From: an uncultured Fidelibacterota bacterium
GTDB taxonomy: Bacteria > Fidelibacterota > Marinisomatia > Marinisomatales > Marinisomataceae
Reading direction: 5' to 3'
Length of the DNA stretch: 64,000 nt
NCBI GenBank assembly: GCA_902578385.1
Contig: CACHCR010000002.1
Location: 1 to 64,000 of the forward strand
The notes under the pieces were generated by a model, which ran no database searches, was not told the origin of the DNA, and saw only the letters and a list, made by a program, of their open reading frames with translations. Numbering within the stretch: the first letter of the stretch is position 1; each line of letters begins with the position of its first letter. The position numbers and the translations under genes were made by a program. Of the stretch, positions 19,505 through 30,460 are shown piece by piece.

Positions 19505-19685
19505 AATAAGTCCTTGTTTTAAATACATTATTAGCAAATATGATATAGTATAAAATAATACAGAAAAGAAACCATAATACAATAGCGAATGCTTCTTTAA
19601 TTAGAAATAGAATGTAAACGATAGCTAGATAAATAAGCCATTTTATCCATGTCGGCTGAGACCATAATTTAAATAACGATTTCAT
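19485..19685 (-). CDS. Small membrane protein, function unknown
   Basis: The 66-residue protein has two hydrophobic segments (about residues 14-31 and 33-50) and a basic C-terminal tail (KTRTYYEKNN). I do not recognise the family. Evidence that it is real: the ATG overlaps the stop of the sulfotransferase gene (TAATG), and its end overlaps the start of the M1 peptidase by 20 bases, so it fills the only space between two co-directional genes. It may be translated mainly to couple the two neighbours. Confidence 0.55.
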   Translation of the reverse strand: MKSLFKLWSQPTWIKWLIYLAIVYILFLIKEAFAIVLWFLFCIILYYIIFANNVFKTRTYYEKNNL

Positions 19686-20395
19686 TATTTAACTTCTTTT
19701 AAGTAACTATAATATTTCATTGATTCATTATAAATAGAATCATATTTATTCTCAATGTTAATATCTTTTTTTTCATATTTATGGAATCCAGTAGTTTTAA
19801 TAACGTTATCGTACCAAATTTTCCACCAAATACCATAATTAATATGACCACCTTTTTCCCATTTAAGCATTTTTTTATCAAATTTAATATTAATTTTTCT
19901 ACACCAACCTGAAAGTGATTTCTCGGGATTCATTAATAGTTCTTTTGAATCAATTACCAAGTATGGTTTATTAATTTTTTCAAGAAAATTTACAATTTCA
20001 TATTGTTGTGGATAGCCCAGTTCTTCTACAGAATTCAATTCATTTTTTTTCGTAAAAGAACTAATTACTTCCTTAGGGTGTCTTAATAAAATACAATTTT
20101 CGATATTAGAAATCCAATCTATACTGCTTAAATCAAGAATATGATGTGCCATATGTTTTTGATACCATATTTTTTTATTTTTAGGTATTTCTCCTGTGAG
20201 ATATTTCACAATTTCGTTATAGTTTGAAGAATACTTATTTATTATTTCTTTATGCATTGGATGTTTTATTTTTGTTTCTTTAAGGTAGTGTGCATAAAAA
20301 GGTTCATCAGTAACAAATGTATCTGTTCTTGAAGACCATGACCTCATTAATGCTGTAGATATATTTCTAGGACCTGACCAGCAACCTACAATCAT
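19685..20395 (-). CDS. Sulfotransferase-family protein
   Basis: The 236-residue cytoplasmic protein starts with VGCWSGPRNISTALMRSWSS, a 5'-phosphosulfate-binding loop, and carries the 3'-phosphate-binding segment ILLRHPKEVISSFTKK about 100 residues later. This is the P-loop sulfotransferase fold that uses PAPS. The acceptor is unknown. It overlaps the class IV aminotransferase gene by four bases (ATGA), a pairing that suggests a shared small-molecule pathway. An APS-kinase-like gene at 28430 could in principle supply PAPS, but that protein is atypical. Confidence 0.72.
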   Translation of the reverse strand: MIVGCWSGPRNISTALMRSWSSRTDTFVTDEPFYAHYLKETKIKHPMHKEIINKYSSNYNEIVKYLTGEIPKNKKIWYQKHMAHHILDLSSIDWISNIENCILLRHPKEVISSFTKKNELNSVEELGYPQQYEIVNFLEKINKPYLVIDSKELLMNPEKSLSGWCRKINIKFDKKMLKWEKGGHINYGIWWKIWYDNVIKTTGFHKYEKKDINIENKYDSIYNESMKYYSYLKEVK

Positions 20396-21303
20396 AATCC
20401 GTTTATATTTTCCTGAATATGATGGTTGTAAAAATCTCTAATATGATTTGTTAATGAATTAGAATTAATTGATGATAAGTTTCTGTTTTCAAGTGAAGAT
20501 ACTGGAATTATTCCAGCGAATGTACCAGTTACAAATGCTTCATCACAATCTTTAATTTCATCAAAGGTAAAATCTTTCTGATAACAATTAATACCATTTT
20601 TTTCACAAAGATAGATGGCTTTACTTCTAGTTATTCCGTTAAGACAATATTCACCTCTTGAAGTCCAAACGGAATTATTTTTAATAAAAAATAGGTTTGT
20701 AGAATTACACGTACTAATATTCCCATAAGGGTCATTCATAATTCCTTCGTCATAATTTAATTCATTTGCTTCAATGCTGGCTAAAATACAATTTAATTTG
20801 CTTAAAGTATTGTAACGTGTACTCAAAATATTATGAGGTGGCCGAACTATTGAAACTCTTCCTATACTAATTCCATTTTTATATGTATTGGGATCTGTCT
20901 CTTTATATTCAGGGATGATAACTAAAGTTATGGGCCCAATATTTGCATTTGGATTTTGATATGGGGTTATTTTTTCTCCTCTTGAAATGATAAGTCTAAT
21001 ATGTACACCATCTGTCATATTATTTTTTAATAATACTTTCGATATTTGATTAATAATTTGTGTTTTTGAAAAAGGTATATCCAAAGATATGCCCTTTGCA
21101 CTTTGAAACAGCCTATCAAGATGGTCATCAATGAATACTAACTGATTATTATGAAGTCGAATCCCTTCCCAAACTCCATCACCTAAAAGAAAGCCACTGT
21201 CAAATACGGATACTTTAGCTTTATTTCTATGAAATAGTTTTCCATCAATGTTGATAAATATATCAGCATTTTTATCATTTTTTATATATGAATGGCTACT
21301 CAT
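20392..21303 (-). CDS. Class IV PLP aminotransferase (branched-chain/D-amino-acid type)
   Basis: The 303-residue protein has the fold-type IV pattern: VSVFDSGFLLGDGVWEGIR, FIDDHLDRLFQSAKG, the Lys in TLSKLNCI that should bind PLP, EGIMNDPYGNISTCNSTN and LNGITRSKAI for phosphate binding. The family includes branched-chain aminotransferase, D-amino-acid aminotransferase and aminodeoxychorismate lyase; the motifs do not decide between them. The only usable ATG (21303) lies three bases past the 3' end of the tRNA, and no Shine-Dalgarno is possible outside the tRNA body. A second in-frame ATG (21315) falls inside the tRNA acceptor stem and is unlikely. Confidence 0.8.
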   Translation of the reverse strand: MSSHSYIKNDKNADIFINIDGKLFHRNKAKVSVFDSGFLLGDGVWEGIRLHNNQLVFIDDHLDRLFQSAKGISLDIPFSKTQIINQISKVLLKNNMTDGVHIRLIISRGEKITPYQNPNANIGPITLVIIPEYKETDPNTYKNGISIGRVSIVRPPHNILSTRYNTLSKLNCILASIEANELNYDEGIMNDPYGNISTCNSTNLFFIKNNSVWTSRGEYCLNGITRSKAIYLCEKNGINCYQKDFTFDEIKDCDEAFVTGTFAGIIPVSSLENRNLSSINSNSLTNHIRDFYNHHIQENINGL

Positions 21304-21306
21304 TTG

Positions 21307-21380
21307 TGGGCCCACAGGGACTTGAACCCCGAACCTGCGGATTATGAGTCCGTTGCTCTAACCAATTGAGCTATGGGCCC
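21307..21380 (-). tRNA. tRNA with CAT anticodon, probably tRNA-Ile2 (lysidine type)
   Basis: The 74-base minus-strand sequence folds as a cloverleaf: acceptor stem GGGCCCA/TGGGCCC with discriminator A, D stem GCTC/GAGC, anticodon loop CTCATAA on a CGGA/TCCG stem (with an A-C mismatch at 27-43), and T arm CGGGG-TTCAAGT-CCCTG. CCA is not encoded. C4-G69 and C5-G68 in the acceptor stem are determinants for TilS, which favours tRNA-Ile(CAU) over elongator tRNA-Met; Met cannot be excluded by eye. Confidence 0.93.
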
Positions 21381-24861: not shown

Positions 24862-25323
24862 ATGGAAAAAGGCCGTCATTCAATAATAAAAAATTCAGAA
24901 ATTGGCAAAGGGACGGTAGTCTGGCATTTTTGTAATATTTATGGTGCGGACATTGGAAAGAATGTCAAGATTGGTTCATATGTAGAAATACAGGATGGTG
25001 TTAAAATTGGAGACAATTCTATTATTAGCTCCCATTCGTTTATATGTTCTTTAGTAACTGTAGGTAAAAATGTTTTTATAGGACATTCTGTGATGACTGT
25101 AAATGATAAAAACCCTCCATCATTTAGAAGAACAGGATCCAAGGATGGATGGTTGCCAACAGATATATGTGATAATGCAGTTATTGGAAGTGGCTGTGTA
25201 ATATTCCCAGTTAGAGTTGGGAAAAACTCAGTTGTTGGTGCTGGATCCGTAGTTACAGAAGATGTTCCTGATAATACTAAGGTTGCTGGTTCGCCAGCAA
25301 AAATCATAGGAAAAGTTGAATAA
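24862..25323 (+). CDS. Left-handed beta-helix acetyltransferase for amino-sugar nucleotides
   Basis: The 153-residue protein consists mostly of hexapeptide repeats (IGKGTVVWHF, IGKNVKIGSYVEI, IGDNSIISSHSFI, VGKNVFIGHS, VGKNSVVGAGSVV) and ends with AGSPAKIIGKV, a trimeric acyl-CoA-dependent transferase signature. The VWHF turn near residue 20 is typical of WlbB/WbpD- and FdtC-like enzymes that acetylate 3-amino sugars on nucleotide carriers. Its TAA overlaps the ATG of an aminotransferase gene, which could supply the amino sugar. Confidence 0.8.
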   Translation: MEKGRHSIIKNSEIGKGTVVWHFCNIYGADIGKNVKIGSYVEIQDGVKIGDNSIISSHSFICSLVTVGKNVFIGHSVMTVNDKNPPSFRRTGSKDGWLPTDICDNAVIGSGCVIFPVRVGKNSVVGAGSVVTEDVPDNTKVAGSPAKIIGKVE

Positions 25324-26430
25324 TGAATATTCCTTTCGCAGACATCAAGAAACAATATTTAAGTATTTCTGATGAAATTAATAATTCTATACAAGAAGTT
25401 TTAAACGATACAGCTTTTATTAGAGGTAAATATGTTGAAAGGTTTGAAAATAATCTTTCAAAATTGTATGGTATAAATCATTGTATTGGAGTGGGCAATG
25501 GTACCGATGCAATATATTTAGCTTTAAGAGCGCTTGATATCGGCCCAGGAGATGAAGTAATAACTGTTTGCAATTCATGGATTTCTACTTCTGAAGTTAT
25601 TGGACAAGTTGGTGCTAATGTTAAATTTATTGATATAGAATTAGATAATTTTAATATTGATGTTAATAAAATTGAGACCAAAATTTCTGAAAAAAACAAA
25701 AGCAATAATTCCTGTTCATTTATATGGTCAACCTGTAAAAAATATGGATTTACTGATTGAAATAGCCAAGAAATATTCCATTCATGTAATTGAAGATTGT
25801 GCTCAAGCAATTTTTGCAGAATTTAAAAACCAATATGTTGGTACATTTGGAGATATTGCAACAATTAGCTTTTATCCTGGTAAGAATTTAGGTGCATTTG
25901 GAGATGCTGGTGCGGTTATTACAAACAACAATAATCTTGCTGAAAAAGTAAGAATGATAGCTAATCATGGGCAAAAAATTAAACATAATCATAAATATGA
26001 AGGTATCAATTCTAGAATGGACGGTTTACAAGGAAACATATTAAATGTTAAATTAAATCATATTTTATCTTGGACAAAGAAAAGACAAGCTATAGCTAAT
26101 ATTTACAGAAAACACCTTAAAGAATTGCCAAACATTTCTATTCCTAAAGTAGATAAAGATTGTACTCATGTATTTCATTTGTACGTTATTTTAGCTGAAA
26201 AAAGAAATGAATTAATGAGCTTCTTGAAAGACAATGGCATAGGAACTGCATTACATTATCCAAATATTCTACCTTTACTAGCATGTTATGACCATTTAAA
26301 TCATTCTGCTTCAGATTTTCCAATGGGGTTTGATGCTTCACAAAGAATTCTTTCCCTGCCTATGTTTCCGGAGCTGGAGGAAAAAGAGATTCAATATGTT
26401 TGTCAAAAAATAAAAGAGTTTTATACATAA
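25323..26430 (+). pseudogene. DegT/DnrJ/EryC1 sugar aminotransferase split by a one-base frameshift
   Basis: The N-terminal part (25323-25760, with IGVGNGTDAIYLALRAL and GDEVITVCNSW) and the C-terminal part (in another frame, with AIIPVHLYGQPV, VIEDCAQAI, the PLP Lys in YPGKNLGAFGDAGA) together make one full-length enzyme of about 368 residues. The join lies at an A7 run, 25690-25696; removing one A gives an unbroken frame reading KISEKTKAIIPVHLYG. Everything else, including catalytic residues, is intact, so either a sequencing indel, a recent mutation or slippage must be considered. The motif around Lys is that of FdtB/QdtB-like 3-ketosugar aminotransferases. It is coupled to the acetyltransferase upstream. 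Confidence 0.85.
25690..25696 (+). other. A7 homopolymer at the aminotransferase frameshift
   Basis: The run reads GAAAAAAAC across codons gaa-aaa-aac. Restoring the downstream frame needs a shift of +1 (or loss of one A). The heptamer A-AAA-AAC is a classic -1 slippage site, but -1 would give the third frame, so ribosomal -1 shifting does not rescue it. Slippage by RNA polymerase or a read error could. Confidence 0.7.
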
Positions 26431-27558: not shown

Positions 27559-28440
27559 ATGTCAAGATCAGATAGTAAAAGTCACGTTAGAATTGGAGTA
27601 ATAGGAAAAGGTTTTGTAGGAACAGCCGTTTCTCATGGTTTTTCTCACCAGACTGGATATGGTGCGGATATTAAGATTTATGATAAGAATCCAGCTAAGT
27701 CTCAGAACTCTTTGGAGGAGACTGTTAATGAGTCTGACTATCTTTTTTTATCGGTTCCAACACCATCAGCAAAAGATGGAACAATAGATTTGTCTATTGT
27801 TGAAAGTGCGCTTGAATCAATAAATAATGTTAATGATAACGATAATAATATTGTCCTTTTGCGATCAACAGTAACACCAGGTACAACAGAATCTTTGCAA
27901 AAAAAGTATCCTAATTTAAGATTTGTTTTCAATCCAGAATTCTTAACAGAAAGATCTGCCTCTTTTGATTTTATCAATCAGACTAGAGTTATACTTGGTG
28001 GAGAAATAGAAAATACTGAAAAAGTAAAAAAATTATACAGAGATAGATTTGGGGAATATCTACCTGTTCTTCAAACAAGTTTTCAAACCGCAGAATTAAT
28101 TAAATATATGAATAACTTATTTTTTGCTACGAAAGTTTCTTTTTTGAATGAAATGAAGTTATTGTCTGATGAAATTGGGGCAGATTGGGATGATGCTGTT
28201 GAGGGATTTATTCTTGATGGAAGAATCGGGCACTCTCACATATCCGTCCCTGGACCGGATGGAAAATTTGGATTTGGAGGTAGCTGTTTTCCAAAAGATA
28301 TTCAAGCTCTTATAAATTTTGGAGAACAAAATGGAATTGAGATGAATGTACTAAAAGGTGCATGGAAAACTAACTTAAAGGTAAGACCAGACAAAGATTG
28401 GGAAAACCTTAAAGGCAGAGCTGTTTCAGATGAAGAATAA
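27559..28440 (+). CDS. Short UDP-glucose/GDP-mannose dehydrogenase-family protein
   Basis: The 293-residue protein has GVIGKGFVGTAV for NAD binding, FLSVPTPSA, LLRSTVTPGTTE, FNPEFLTERSA, ELIKYMNNLFFATKVSFLNE and the catalytic Cys in FGFGGSCFPKD. Full-length sugar-nucleotide dehydrogenases have over 400 residues; here the C-terminal UDP-binding domain is missing and the chain stops shortly after the central domain. The overall pattern is intact, not a random truncation. It may oxidise a sugar nucleotide to a uronic acid. GGAG lies ahead of the ATG. It overlaps the kinase gene by 11 bases. Confidence 0.78.
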   Translation: MSRSDSKSHVRIGVIGKGFVGTAVSHGFSHQTGYGADIKIYDKNPAKSQNSLEETVNESDYLFLSVPTPSAKDGTIDLSIVESALESINNVNDNDNNIVLLRSTVTPGTTESLQKKYPNLRFVFNPEFLTERSASFDFINQTRVILGGEIENTEKVKKLYRDRFGEYLPVLQTSFQTAELIKYMNNLFFATKVSFLNEMKLLSDEIGADWDDAVEGFILDGRIGHSHISVPGPDGKFGFGGSCFPKDIQALINFGEQNGIEMNVLKGAWKTNLKVRPDKDWENLKGRAVSDEE

Positions 28441-28894
28441 GAAACCTTTTCAAGCTATTTGGCTTACAGGGCAACCTGGTAGCGGTAAAACAACTCTAGC
28501 TAACTTATTATTTTATCATTTAAAAGAAAATTCACCAAACAAATCTTTTTTTAATATTGATGGAGATGATTTAAGAGATCTTTTTCAAAATAAAGACTAT
28601 TCAAAAAAAGGAAGAGAAGCAAATATTAGGCTAGGTATGAGTATCGCTGCTTATTTAATTAATAAAAATTGTCTTCCAATAATTTCTCTGGTATCTCCTT
28701 ATTTAAATTTAAGAGAAGAGTTTAAATCAAAGTATAGCGTTTTAGAGGTTTATGTTCATACTAGCGAAATTAGAGGTAGAGAAAATTACTTTGTAGAAGA
28801 TTACGAACCTCCACATAATAATTTTATAGAGATGGATACAACAAATAAAACTAAAGAGGAAAGTTTAGATGAAATACTCAATGTTTATAGGTAG
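28430..28894 (+). CDS. APS-kinase-like small kinase
   Basis: The 154-residue protein has a P-loop WLTGQPGSGKTT, the DGDDLR motif, REANIRLGM, the ISLVSPYLNLR segment and LEVYVHTS, all matching adenylylsulfate kinase. It lacks the lid segment (KGLYKKAR ... NFTGID in classical CysC) that contacts APS, so the phosphate acceptor may not be APS. Related kinases in capsule loci act on other nucleotide-linked groups, for example in O-methyl phosphoramidate synthesis. It overlaps the sugar dehydrogenase upstream by 11 bases and the nucleotidyltransferase downstream by 26 bases. Confidence 0.72.
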   Translation: MKNKKPFQAIWLTGQPGSGKTTLANLLFYHLKENSPNKSFFNIDGDDLRDLFQNKDYSKKGREANIRLGMSIAAYLINKNCLPIISLVSPYLNLREEFKSKYSVLEVYVHTSEIRGRENYFVEDYEPPHNNFIEMDTTNKTKEESLDEILNVYR

Positions 28895-29216
28895 GTGGCA
28901 ACCTTGGCATAAAGGTCATCGTTGGTTAATTGATCAAAGATTAAATGATAATAAAAATGTTTTAATATGCATAAGAGACATGGAAACTGACGAAAATAAT
29001 CCATATACAGCAGAAGAAGTTAAGATAAATGTAGAAAAATCGTTAAATGATTTGGTGTCAAGTAAAAGAGTAAAGGTGATAATTATTCCTGATATTGAAT
29101 CTGTAAATTATGGACGAGGAGTCGGATATGACATTATTGAACATATACCTCCCTCAAACATTGAGAAAATTTCTGCTACAGAAATTAGAAATAAATTATC
29201 TCAAAATACTCAATGA
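28869..29216 (+). CDS. Small HxGH nucleotidyltransferase (NMNAT/cytidylyltransferase-like)
   Basis: The 115-residue protein has FIGRWQPWHKGHRWLID with the HxGH nucleotide-binding motif at the N-terminus and ISATEIRNKL at the C-terminus, matching the ISxTxxR motif of NMN adenylyltransferase and related enzymes. At this length only the minimal Rossmann core is present. It should activate a phosphate-containing small molecule with NMP. Coupling to the kinase gene (overlap 26 bases) and the flippase gene (overlap 4 bases) suggests it prepares an unusual glycan building block or substituent. The substrate is unknown. Confidence 0.72.
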   Translation: MKYSMFIGRWQPWHKGHRWLIDQRLNDNKNVLICIRDMETDENNPYTAEEVKINVEKSLNDLVSSKRVKVIIIPDIESVNYGRGVGYDIIEHIPPSNIEKISATEIRNKLSQNTQ

Positions 29217-30460
29217 GTATTTTAAAAGACAAATATTTAAAAAATATAGCAAAAATCTTTTCTGCCAATTCCTTAATTCAATTAATACCTGCATTAGGCA
29301 TCTTAATATTAGCACGAATTTTTAGTCCTGAAGGATTTGGATTATTTGCTGTATGGTCAAGTTTTGTATTTATTGGATTAAATGCTGCAATCTTAAAATT
29401 AGAAGTATCTATTTTTGACGAAGTAAGCGGAAATCGAATGAAAGCAGTTCAGATTATGCTCTTTGTTAGTCTAATTTTATCTATTGCCATTGGATTTTTA
29501 GCAAGCATAATATTTTATTCCATAGATTATGAGCAATTCAATATTCTAGATATTATTTTTGGCGCCACTGCTATTTTCCTTTTAGCAGCTTATAGGATTT
29601 GGACACTTTTGCTAACAGCTGAAGCTCAATTTGATAATCTAATTATTATAAGACTTGTCAATGCATCAGCTGTATTATTATCTCAAATAATTTTTGGTCT
29701 ATACAATCCTGAATACAAAAGCTTAATAATCGGATTTATTGTTGCTCATGTTATAACTTTATTTTTTGCTCAAAAAATACAGCCCATTACTTTTACATTT
29801 CGGATTGATAATATTTTTATTAACGTTAAAAAATATTTTAAAAAACATATTAGATACCCTTTATTCTCATTACCAAGCGAAGTAGTTAGTTCAGTTAGCT
29901 CACAGATTCCTTTCATAATATTGCTAAGTAAGTATGGTCCTGACTTAACAGGACAATTTGCAATGGCATTTAAAATACTAGGAGTGCCCATGGGTTTTGT
30001 AGGTAAGGCTGTTGGAGATGTTTTTAGACAAAAATCTGCTGAAGATTATAAAGTAATAAAGAATTGTAGAGATACTTTTAATAAGACATTTTTTCTTTTA
30101 TTTTGTGTATCATTATTTTCAGCACTATTCACTTGGAATTTTATCTCACCTATTGTTTTAATAGTATTTGGAAGTGAATGGGAGCTGGCAGGTGCAATAT
30201 GCATTTTTTTAATTCCATTGTTTTCTATGAATCTGATTGTTAGTCCTTTAACATTCACATTATATGTTGTTCAGAAGCAACATATCGATTTGCTATGGCA
30301 ATTAATTCTTATAGTGACTGTATATTTATGTCTCACAATGACAACAAATTTTAATACATCAATTATTTATTATAGCATCACTTATTCGATGCTATATATT
30401 TTACTATTACCATATCTTTATTATATTTCAGGTGATTTATCTAAAAATCAAAATCTCTAG
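29213..30460 (+). CDS. Polysaccharide flippase (Wzx-like, MATE/MOP superfamily)
   Basis: The 415-residue integral membrane protein has about twelve hydrophobic helices. The N-terminal region (ANSLIQLIPALGILILARIFSPEGFGLFAVWSS, here given in two parts: ANSLIQLIPALGIL and ILARIFSPEGFGLFA) is typical of O-antigen flippases, and GPDLTGQFAMAFKILGVP in the middle is a frequent motif. It should move lipid-linked oligosaccharide across the inner membrane. ATGA overlap with the nucleotidyltransferase upstream; hisH begins two bases after its stop. It is the only clear Wzx candidate in the window. Confidence 0.82.
   Translation: MSILKDKYLKNIAKIFSANSLIQLIPALGILILARIFSPEGFGLFAVWSSFVFIGLNAAILKLEVSIFDEVSGNRMKAVQIMLFVSLILSIAIGFLASIIFYSIDYEQFNILDIIFGATAIFLLAAYRIWTLLLTAEAQFDNLIIIRLVNASAVLLSQIIFGLYNPEYKSLIIGFIVAHVITLFFAQKIQPITFTFRIDNIFINVKKYFKKHIRYPLFSLPSEVVSSVSSQIPFIILLSKYGPDLTGQFAMAFKILGVPMGFVGKAVGDVFRQKSAEDYKVIKNCRDTFNKTFFLLFCVSLFSALFTWNFISPIVLIVFGSEWELAGAICIFLIPLFSMNLIVSPLTFTLYVVQKQHIDLLWQLILIVTVYLCLTMTTNFNTSIIYYSITYSMLYILLLPYLYYISGDLSKNQNL

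Follow-up and report, generated by a model that had tools for sequence, protein, structure and literature searches.

The activation of sulfate is central to the sulfur cycle, and two enzyme solutions are known for its first step, from sulfate to APS: Sat (PF01747), a protein of ~390 residues from the HxGH/HxxH nucleotidyltransferase superfamily, and CysDN, composed of a PP-loop subunit (CysD) and a GTPase (CysN). The second step, from APS to PAPS, belongs to the APS kinase CysC (PF01583, TIGR00455), a P-loop protein with a DGDxxR motif and a following Arg, an SPY/SPF..R motif and a C-terminal lid of ~25 residues carrying an FTG motif. Sat also occurs fused to this kinase, forming bifunctional PAPS synthetases. 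Other members of the kinase family act on substrates different from APS, for instance the Cj1415-type cytidine diphosphoramidate kinase of a Campylobacter capsule locus, whose cytidylyltransferase partner is of another family and fold than the nucleotidyltransferase described below.

Here we describe two overlapping genes that couple a kinase of the APS kinase family to a 115-residue HxGH nucleotidyltransferase (hereafter NT), located in a window of 64,000 nucleotides (the whole stretch of DNA analysed) from an uncultured Fidelibacterota bacterium. With a probability of about 0.83, we consider this pair to be a miniature split PAPS synthetase, in which NT would be the missing ATP sulfurylase. 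The features on which the analysis is based are the following:

19685-20395, minus strand: Sulfotransfer_5 family protein (ST5), 236 aa, candidate PAPS user (PF19798, 157 bits)
20392-21315, minus strand: class IV aminotransferase-family protein (AT4; PF01063, 152 bits), with a 4-base overlap with the ST5 gene
27559-28440, plus strand: short UDP-glucose/GDP-mannose dehydrogenase-like gene, matching PF03721 and PF00984, with no C-terminal domain
28430-28894, plus strand: lid-less P-loop kinase of the APS kinase family, 154 aa, proposed APS kinase (PF01583, 61 bits)
28559-28576, plus strand: DGDDLR motif of the kinase (D46, R49), in invariant columns, aligned with the canonical DGDxxR
28869-29216, plus strand: HxGH nucleotidyltransferase NT, 115 aa, proposed compact ATP sulfurylase; closest profiles archaeal NMN adenylyltransferases (NMNAT), far under their cut-offs
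28890-28919, plus strand: GRWQPWHKGH nucleotide-binding motif of NT (G8, R9, Q11, H14, G16 and H17 invariant in 28 relatives)
29109-29129, plus strand: YGRGVGY element of NT (G82, R83, G86 and Y87 invariant in 28 relatives)
29169-29189, plus strand: ISATEIR motif of NT (I101, S102, A103 and R107 invariant in 28 relatives)
29213-30460, plus strand: polysaccharide flippase, genomic context (PF13440, PF01943)

The kinase gene overlaps the dehydrogenase-like gene by 11 bases and the NT gene by 26 bases, while the NT gene overlaps the flippase gene by 4 bases. The coordinates, overlaps and motifs given for the kinase/NT pair in a preliminary description of this DNA all held when the sequence was read again. 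The surroundings form a surface-polysaccharide locus, with DegT aminotransferases, Wzz, Wzy_C, a sugar transferase and HisH/HisF-like genes, and the window kinase is the sole APS-kinase-family gene of its source genome (0.95 Mb, 14 contigs, 76% complete). The dehydrogenase and the flippase were considered as functional partners of the pair and set aside, since neither recurs in the neighbour clustering of NT loci.

The kinase carries a Walker A motif (GQPGSGKT), DGDDLR and VSPYLNLR, and thus shares with CysC the P-loop, the DGDxxR motif with its following Arg and the SPY/SPF..R motif, as well as the fold. Alignment with 22 relatives, canonical APS kinases included, revealed that G14, G19, K20, D46, R49 and R62 are invariant; we take the D46 region to hold the catalytic Asp, and R49 and R62 to be the two APS-binding Arg (DGDxxR...R). 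By contrast, the canonical lid with its FTG motif (DPKGxYxKAxxGEIxxFTGxxxPYExP) is replaced by a short stretch in the window kinase, a loss shared throughout the window clade and by the aligned phage homologues. The Pfam match (cut-off 21.1) is confined to positions 4-110 of the 152-position profile. The score against the NCBIfam model apsK (TIGR00455; 68.3 bits) falls under the equivalog cut-off of 138.7 because the lid is missing. The alignment with canonical relatives and the partial Pfam match thus confirmed the absence of the APS-contacting lid, as previously remarked. The preliminary description had also regarded a structure prediction pointing to a true APS kinase as an argument against its own reading, and the AlphaFold2 model (pLDDT 94.9) goes part of the way in that direction: its top PDB matches are APS kinases, and the first three structure matches, including 5cb8 and 7yq1, are APS-bound APS kinases (TM 0.80-0.81).

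No curated family model fits NT. Its best families are archaeal NMNAT models, with 42-47 bits against cut-offs of 127-181; for instance, TIGR01527 matches residues 4-78 only, with 42.6 bits, and misses its equivalog cut-off of 181.2. The score against Pfam CTP_transf_like lies right at the cut-off, and the Pfam scan gave no match to the Sat domain (PF01747). With Sat, NT shares the superfamily and the proposed reaction, but it carries the HKGH and ISATEIR signatures in place of the Sat motifs, on less than a third of the length. With CysDN it shares the proposed reaction only, being an HxGH protein unrelated to the PP-loop CysD and its GTPase CysN. Archaeal NMNAT (TIGR01527) is the closest described enzyme in both sequence and fold, yet past residue 78 NT lacks much of the NMNAT segment, with ~24 fewer residues up to ISATEIR, and holds there the invariant GR..GY element. 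This YGRGVGY element, outside the NMNAT-matching part, is a candidate oxyanion/acceptor loop. The NT model (pLDDT 85.2) matches archaeal NMNAT and phosphopantetheine adenylyltransferase, with no match reaching an E-value of 0.001, and a Thermus thermophilus ATP sulfurylase with APS stands at rank 12 of the match list. In the open-access literature on new or missing ATP sulfurylases, phage cysC with sulfotransferase, sulfite oxidation in SAR11 and the APS kinases of haloarchaea, we found no paper on the NT/kinase pair.

Searching with the NT sequence on its own recovered relatives far beyond chance, with 58 loci in genomes and 578 in viral contigs; 80 of the viral loci were kept. These relatives reach 84% identity, the nearest ones occurring in uncultured Marinimicrobia. 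Among 140 NT genes (genome loci, kept viral loci and the window), a kinase of the APS kinase family was adjacent, with at most one gene between, to 129 and fused to 5, that is 134 of 140. The pairing is ancient and spans bacteria, archaea and phages. The preliminary description had treated the two genes as one functional unit and had held that a neighbourhood survey finding no such pairing in related genomes would speak against its reading; the survey revealed a conserved pairing, in agreement with a single unit. In isolated phages the two enzymes form a kinase-NT fusion, and the profile of the phage family PHROG phrog_10255 (labelled 'kinase'), where they are likewise one protein, matches both window proteins. 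In a gammaproteobacterial metagenome-assembled genome (MAG), the fusion has the opposite order, with NT preceding a canonical APS kinase, and is truncated by the contig end. In another locus (L017:6996-7344, genome G161), the NT gene is interrupted and lies in two pieces, as a decaying copy or an error.

The viral loci display additional recurrent neighbours. Many of them (L060-L139) have genes for a DUF3310 protein and a sulfotransferase-like or GT11-like glycosyltransferase before the pair, this last position being perhaps a swappable slot, followed by methylase and DHH-family genes after it. An N4/N6 DNA methylase gene follows the pair in 64 viral loci; a role in phage DNA modification was rejected, as this methylase is not recurrent in bacteria. 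In 6 viral loci (L062, L064, L065, L077, L098, L129), a gene for a small HAD phosphatase (cluster c48), possibly a PAP phosphatase, separates the kinase from NT. In Casjensviridae (L140, L210, L211), the gene for the kinase-NT fusion overlaps the gene upstream of it, which encodes a NADAR domain in L211 and a near-identical protein in the others; the block also includes a MazG-like pyrophosphatase and a gene annotated as cysteine dioxygenase. The phrog_10255 family forms a distant clade, with about 36% identity in NT, and this Casjensviridae branch may have another function, its NADAR neighbour hinting at NAD chemistry. The SAR11/SAR86 branch is likewise distant.

Beyond the conserved pairing, several partners and neighbours of NT relatives belong to APS and PAPS metabolism. 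The NT partners in loci L011 and L012, in genome G099 and in haloarchaea score above the equivalog cut-off of apsK. NT relatives were found on nine haloarchaeal plasmids, and each of the four examined has a cysC-annotated gene for a fusion of ~285 aa, in which NT follows a full-lid APS kinase, and a sulfotransferase gene directly or nearly directly upstream; the isolates include Halocatena, Haladaptatus, Natrinema and Halostagnicola, and the two fusions scored against apsK reached 147.8 and 160.3 bits. NT relatives are thus coupled or fused to true APS kinases, and NT would supply the ATP sulfurylase activity expected of a bifunctional PAPS synthetase. In Flavobacteriales (L011), a canonical APS kinase and NT are accompanied by CysQ, a PAP phosphatase (261.6 bits, equivalog cut-off 228.8), a flippase and 3 sulfotransferases. 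Elsewhere, CysQ (267.6 bits) overlaps NT (L020), a sulfotransferase lies downstream of a canonical APS kinase and NT (L012, with the same cluster in L014), and another lies upstream of a kinase-NT fusion (L015). A sulfotransferase-like gene with the motifs KCGTS and RNPYSRFFS is located just upstream in 21 of the 80 viral loci, and 8 of these viral proteins, once scanned, gave weak Sulfotransfer_1 matches in 5 cases and Sulfotransfer_2 matches in 3; a sulfotransferase motif scan, which is blind to Sulfotransfer_5, produced 16 matches against 0 in shuffles. A DHH-family gene lies downstream in 51 of the 80 viral loci. Given that a DHH enzyme is a PAP phosphatase in Methanothermococcus (PMC10322725), the viral protein is by analogy a candidate for the same role. 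In SAR11 loci (e.g. L021:4767-6602, L027, L016, L019), aprA and aprB (989.7 and 194 bits) stand beside the pair on the opposite strand, and the pair could complete sulfite oxidation there.

Two further observations accompany these loci. On the haloarchaeal plasmids L212-L215, from several genera, the same three genes cluster repeatedly (sulfotransferase, APS kinase-NT fusion, YqcI/YcgG-family protein), which could represent a sulfated small-molecule pathway. The SAR11 pair also adjoins type I secretion ABC/HlyD genes.

The classical ATP sulfurylases are missing from most of these backgrounds. The preliminary description had noted that no ATP sulfurylase is present, which extends to the sampled genomes of the window's genus: Sat was found in 0 of 24 genomes and CysD in none of those tested, PF01507 matches being weak and mostly to ~440-residue proteins that are not CysD-like. 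NT occurs in 13 of these 24 genomes, and APS-kinase-family genes occur in the same 13 and in one more, near a contig end. Neither Sat nor CysD was detected in 25 of the 28 NT-carrying genomes reached through the loci (a weak sub-cut-off CysD match in G219 not being counted), nor in any of the three SAR11 genomes tested (G214-G216). Four NT-carrying genomes (G206, G209, G210, G212) hold a canonical APS kinase despite having neither Sat nor CysD, and in four others (G152, G208, G211, G218) a classical ATP sulfurylase accompanies NT. Among 199 genomes surveyed in the phylum, 117 had an APS kinase (E <= 1e-14). Sat or CysD accompanied it in 96, and NT was present in 13 of the remaining 21, leaving 8 with none of the three APS sources. 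The association of NT with missing Sat/CysD in the phylum (Fisher p 4e-11) overstates independence, as the 13 genomes are one genus and therefore represent few independent events. Many surveyed genomes are incomplete MAGs or single-cell genomes, in which absence is weak evidence genome by genome.

Within this genus, the kinase beside NT also appears to have been exchanged. Genome G099 (92% complete, without Sat) pairs NT with a canonical APS kinase (246 bits), the arrangement and the neighbours, AT4 and ST5, being those seen with the lid-less relatives, and its NT is 61% identical to that of the window. On the NT tree, the partner type (canonical or not) must switch 5 times, with 3 or more of these switches forced by well-supported branches, although long branches make some placements unsure. 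The ST5/AT4 gene pair lies near NT in 9 of 9 NT-carrying genomes of the genus, at 1.1-5.1 kb in the eight others fetched and at 8.5 kb in the window, where the ST5 gene is upstream of the pair on the other strand. In the two genomes of the genus without NT (G126, G006), which were read almost completely and in which a control gene was found, ST5/AT4 and the kinase/NT pair are both absent. This co-occurrence (9/9 versus 0/2), which holds for lid-less and canonical kinase partners alike, therefore indicates a tie between the pair and the sulfotransferase that is stronger than the 8.5 kb of the window suggests.

NT most likely replaces the absent ATP sulfurylase because its relatives are paired with or fused to bona fide APS kinases and lie near sulfotransferase and CysQ genes, in several cases in genomes where none of the known ATP sulfurylases was detected. 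NT would adenylylate inorganic sulfate (sulfate + ATP -> APS + PPi), the overlapping kinase would phosphorylate the 3'-OH of the product (APS + ATP -> PAPS + ADP), and PAPS would then pass to a sulfotransferase, in the window most likely the ST5 protein, yielding a sulfated glycan or small molecule. We infer both reactions, the sequence in which they occur and the nature of what is sulfated from homology, invariant residues, predicted folds, pairing and fusions, gene linkage and the absence of Sat and CysD. With bare sulfate as acceptor, NT could dispense with an acceptor region of the NMNAT type. The lid-less kinase may, more speculatively, use NT for substrate closure or direct APS transfer, and such reliance would account for the tight coupling of the two proteins. 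Several findings stand against a PAPS synthetase: NT is nearest in sequence and fold to archaeal NMNAT rather than to Sat, the window kinase is devoid of the lid of canonical APS kinases, four NT-carrying genomes also have a classical ATP sulfurylase, 8 genomes of the phylum have an APS kinase with none of the three APS sources, and the ST5 gene of the window lies 8.5 kb off on the other strand.

The first two of these findings feed the alternatives. An improbable one keeps PAPS synthesis for the haloarchaeal and Bacteroidota members of the family and supposes that the window pair, like the rest of its lid-less subfamily, now uses a different sulfate-like acceptor or a different nucleotide and makes a product other than PAPS, as the general loss of the lid in the window clade and in phage homologues and the strong divergence of the SAR11/SAR86 kinases (about 28 bits) might suggest; however, D46, R49 and R62 are kept, the window NT remains close to a same-genus NT that is paired with a canonical APS kinase, and ST5 accompanies both kinds of partner. 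The preliminary description proposed instead that the pair activates a small phosphorylated group for the surface glycan, and deemed sulfate activation less likely. In such a reading the kinase would make or phosphorylate the group and NT would link it to CMP or AMP, giving a new activated substituent like CDP-phosphoramidate. The glycan locus, the lid-less kinase, the frequent activation of phosphate esters by HxGH enzymes and the HAD gene that separates the two partners in 6 of the viral loci, reminiscent of kinase-phosphatase-nucleotidyltransferase sugar pathways, are compatible with such a role, to which the Cj1415-type kinase offers a parallel. It is nevertheless very unlikely as the main reading, because relatives of NT occur with CysQ, sulfotransferases and canonical APS kinases, an association that also reverses the earlier ranking of sulfate activation. 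Kinase exchange within one genus argues in the same direction, as does the lack of a consistent third gene for a phosphorylated precursor, the HAD gene being rare. Pfam scans of some neighbours revealed no Campylobacter-type genes for glutamine phosphate or CDP-phosphoramidate synthesis. The evidence agrees with that proposal in so far as the pair would activate a small acidic moiety that is then passed to a larger molecule, but gives no support to a new phosphorylated substituent.

We give hardly any credence to a NadR-like pair, in which the kinase would phosphorylate nicotinamide riboside and NT, as a reduced NMN adenylyltransferase, would make NAD. Archaeal NMNAT provides the nearest profiles and folds, kinase-NT fusions resemble NadR and a NADAR neighbour exists in Casjensviridae phages, but the NMNAT match ends at about residue 78 of NT, just before the shortened segment with its invariant GR..GY, the kinase aligns with APS kinases rather than with nicotinamide riboside kinases, and the neighbours are genes of the PAPS pathway, not of NAD metabolism.

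If the pair is a split PAPS synthetase, a compact third ATP sulfurylase would fill a pathway gap in abundant ocean bacteria and explain the presence of sulfotransferase genes in genomes seemingly unable to make PAPS. It would also give a new meaning to a widespread phage gene pair, so far seen by family models only as a 'kinase' and an NMN-type adenylyltransferase, and an ATP sulfurylase of 115 residues would be of practical use for PAPS regeneration. A bolder and rather doubtful extension is that NT constitutes a third class of ATP sulfurylase, evolved independently of Sat and CysDN, reduced to ~115 residues since its acceptor is only sulfate, and spread over marine bacteria, haloarchaea and phages; run in reverse in SAR11 (APS + PPi -> ATP + sulfate), it could provide the energy-conserving step that sulfite oxidation lacks there.

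Two minor observations concern the genes upstream of the pair in the window. The dehydrogenase-like protein (27559-28440) is also near the phage family phrog_9148 (172.9 bits). The DegT-family aminotransferase gene at 25323-26430 apparently lies in two overlapping frames (25323-25760 and 25657-26430), reflecting a frameshift or a sequencing error.
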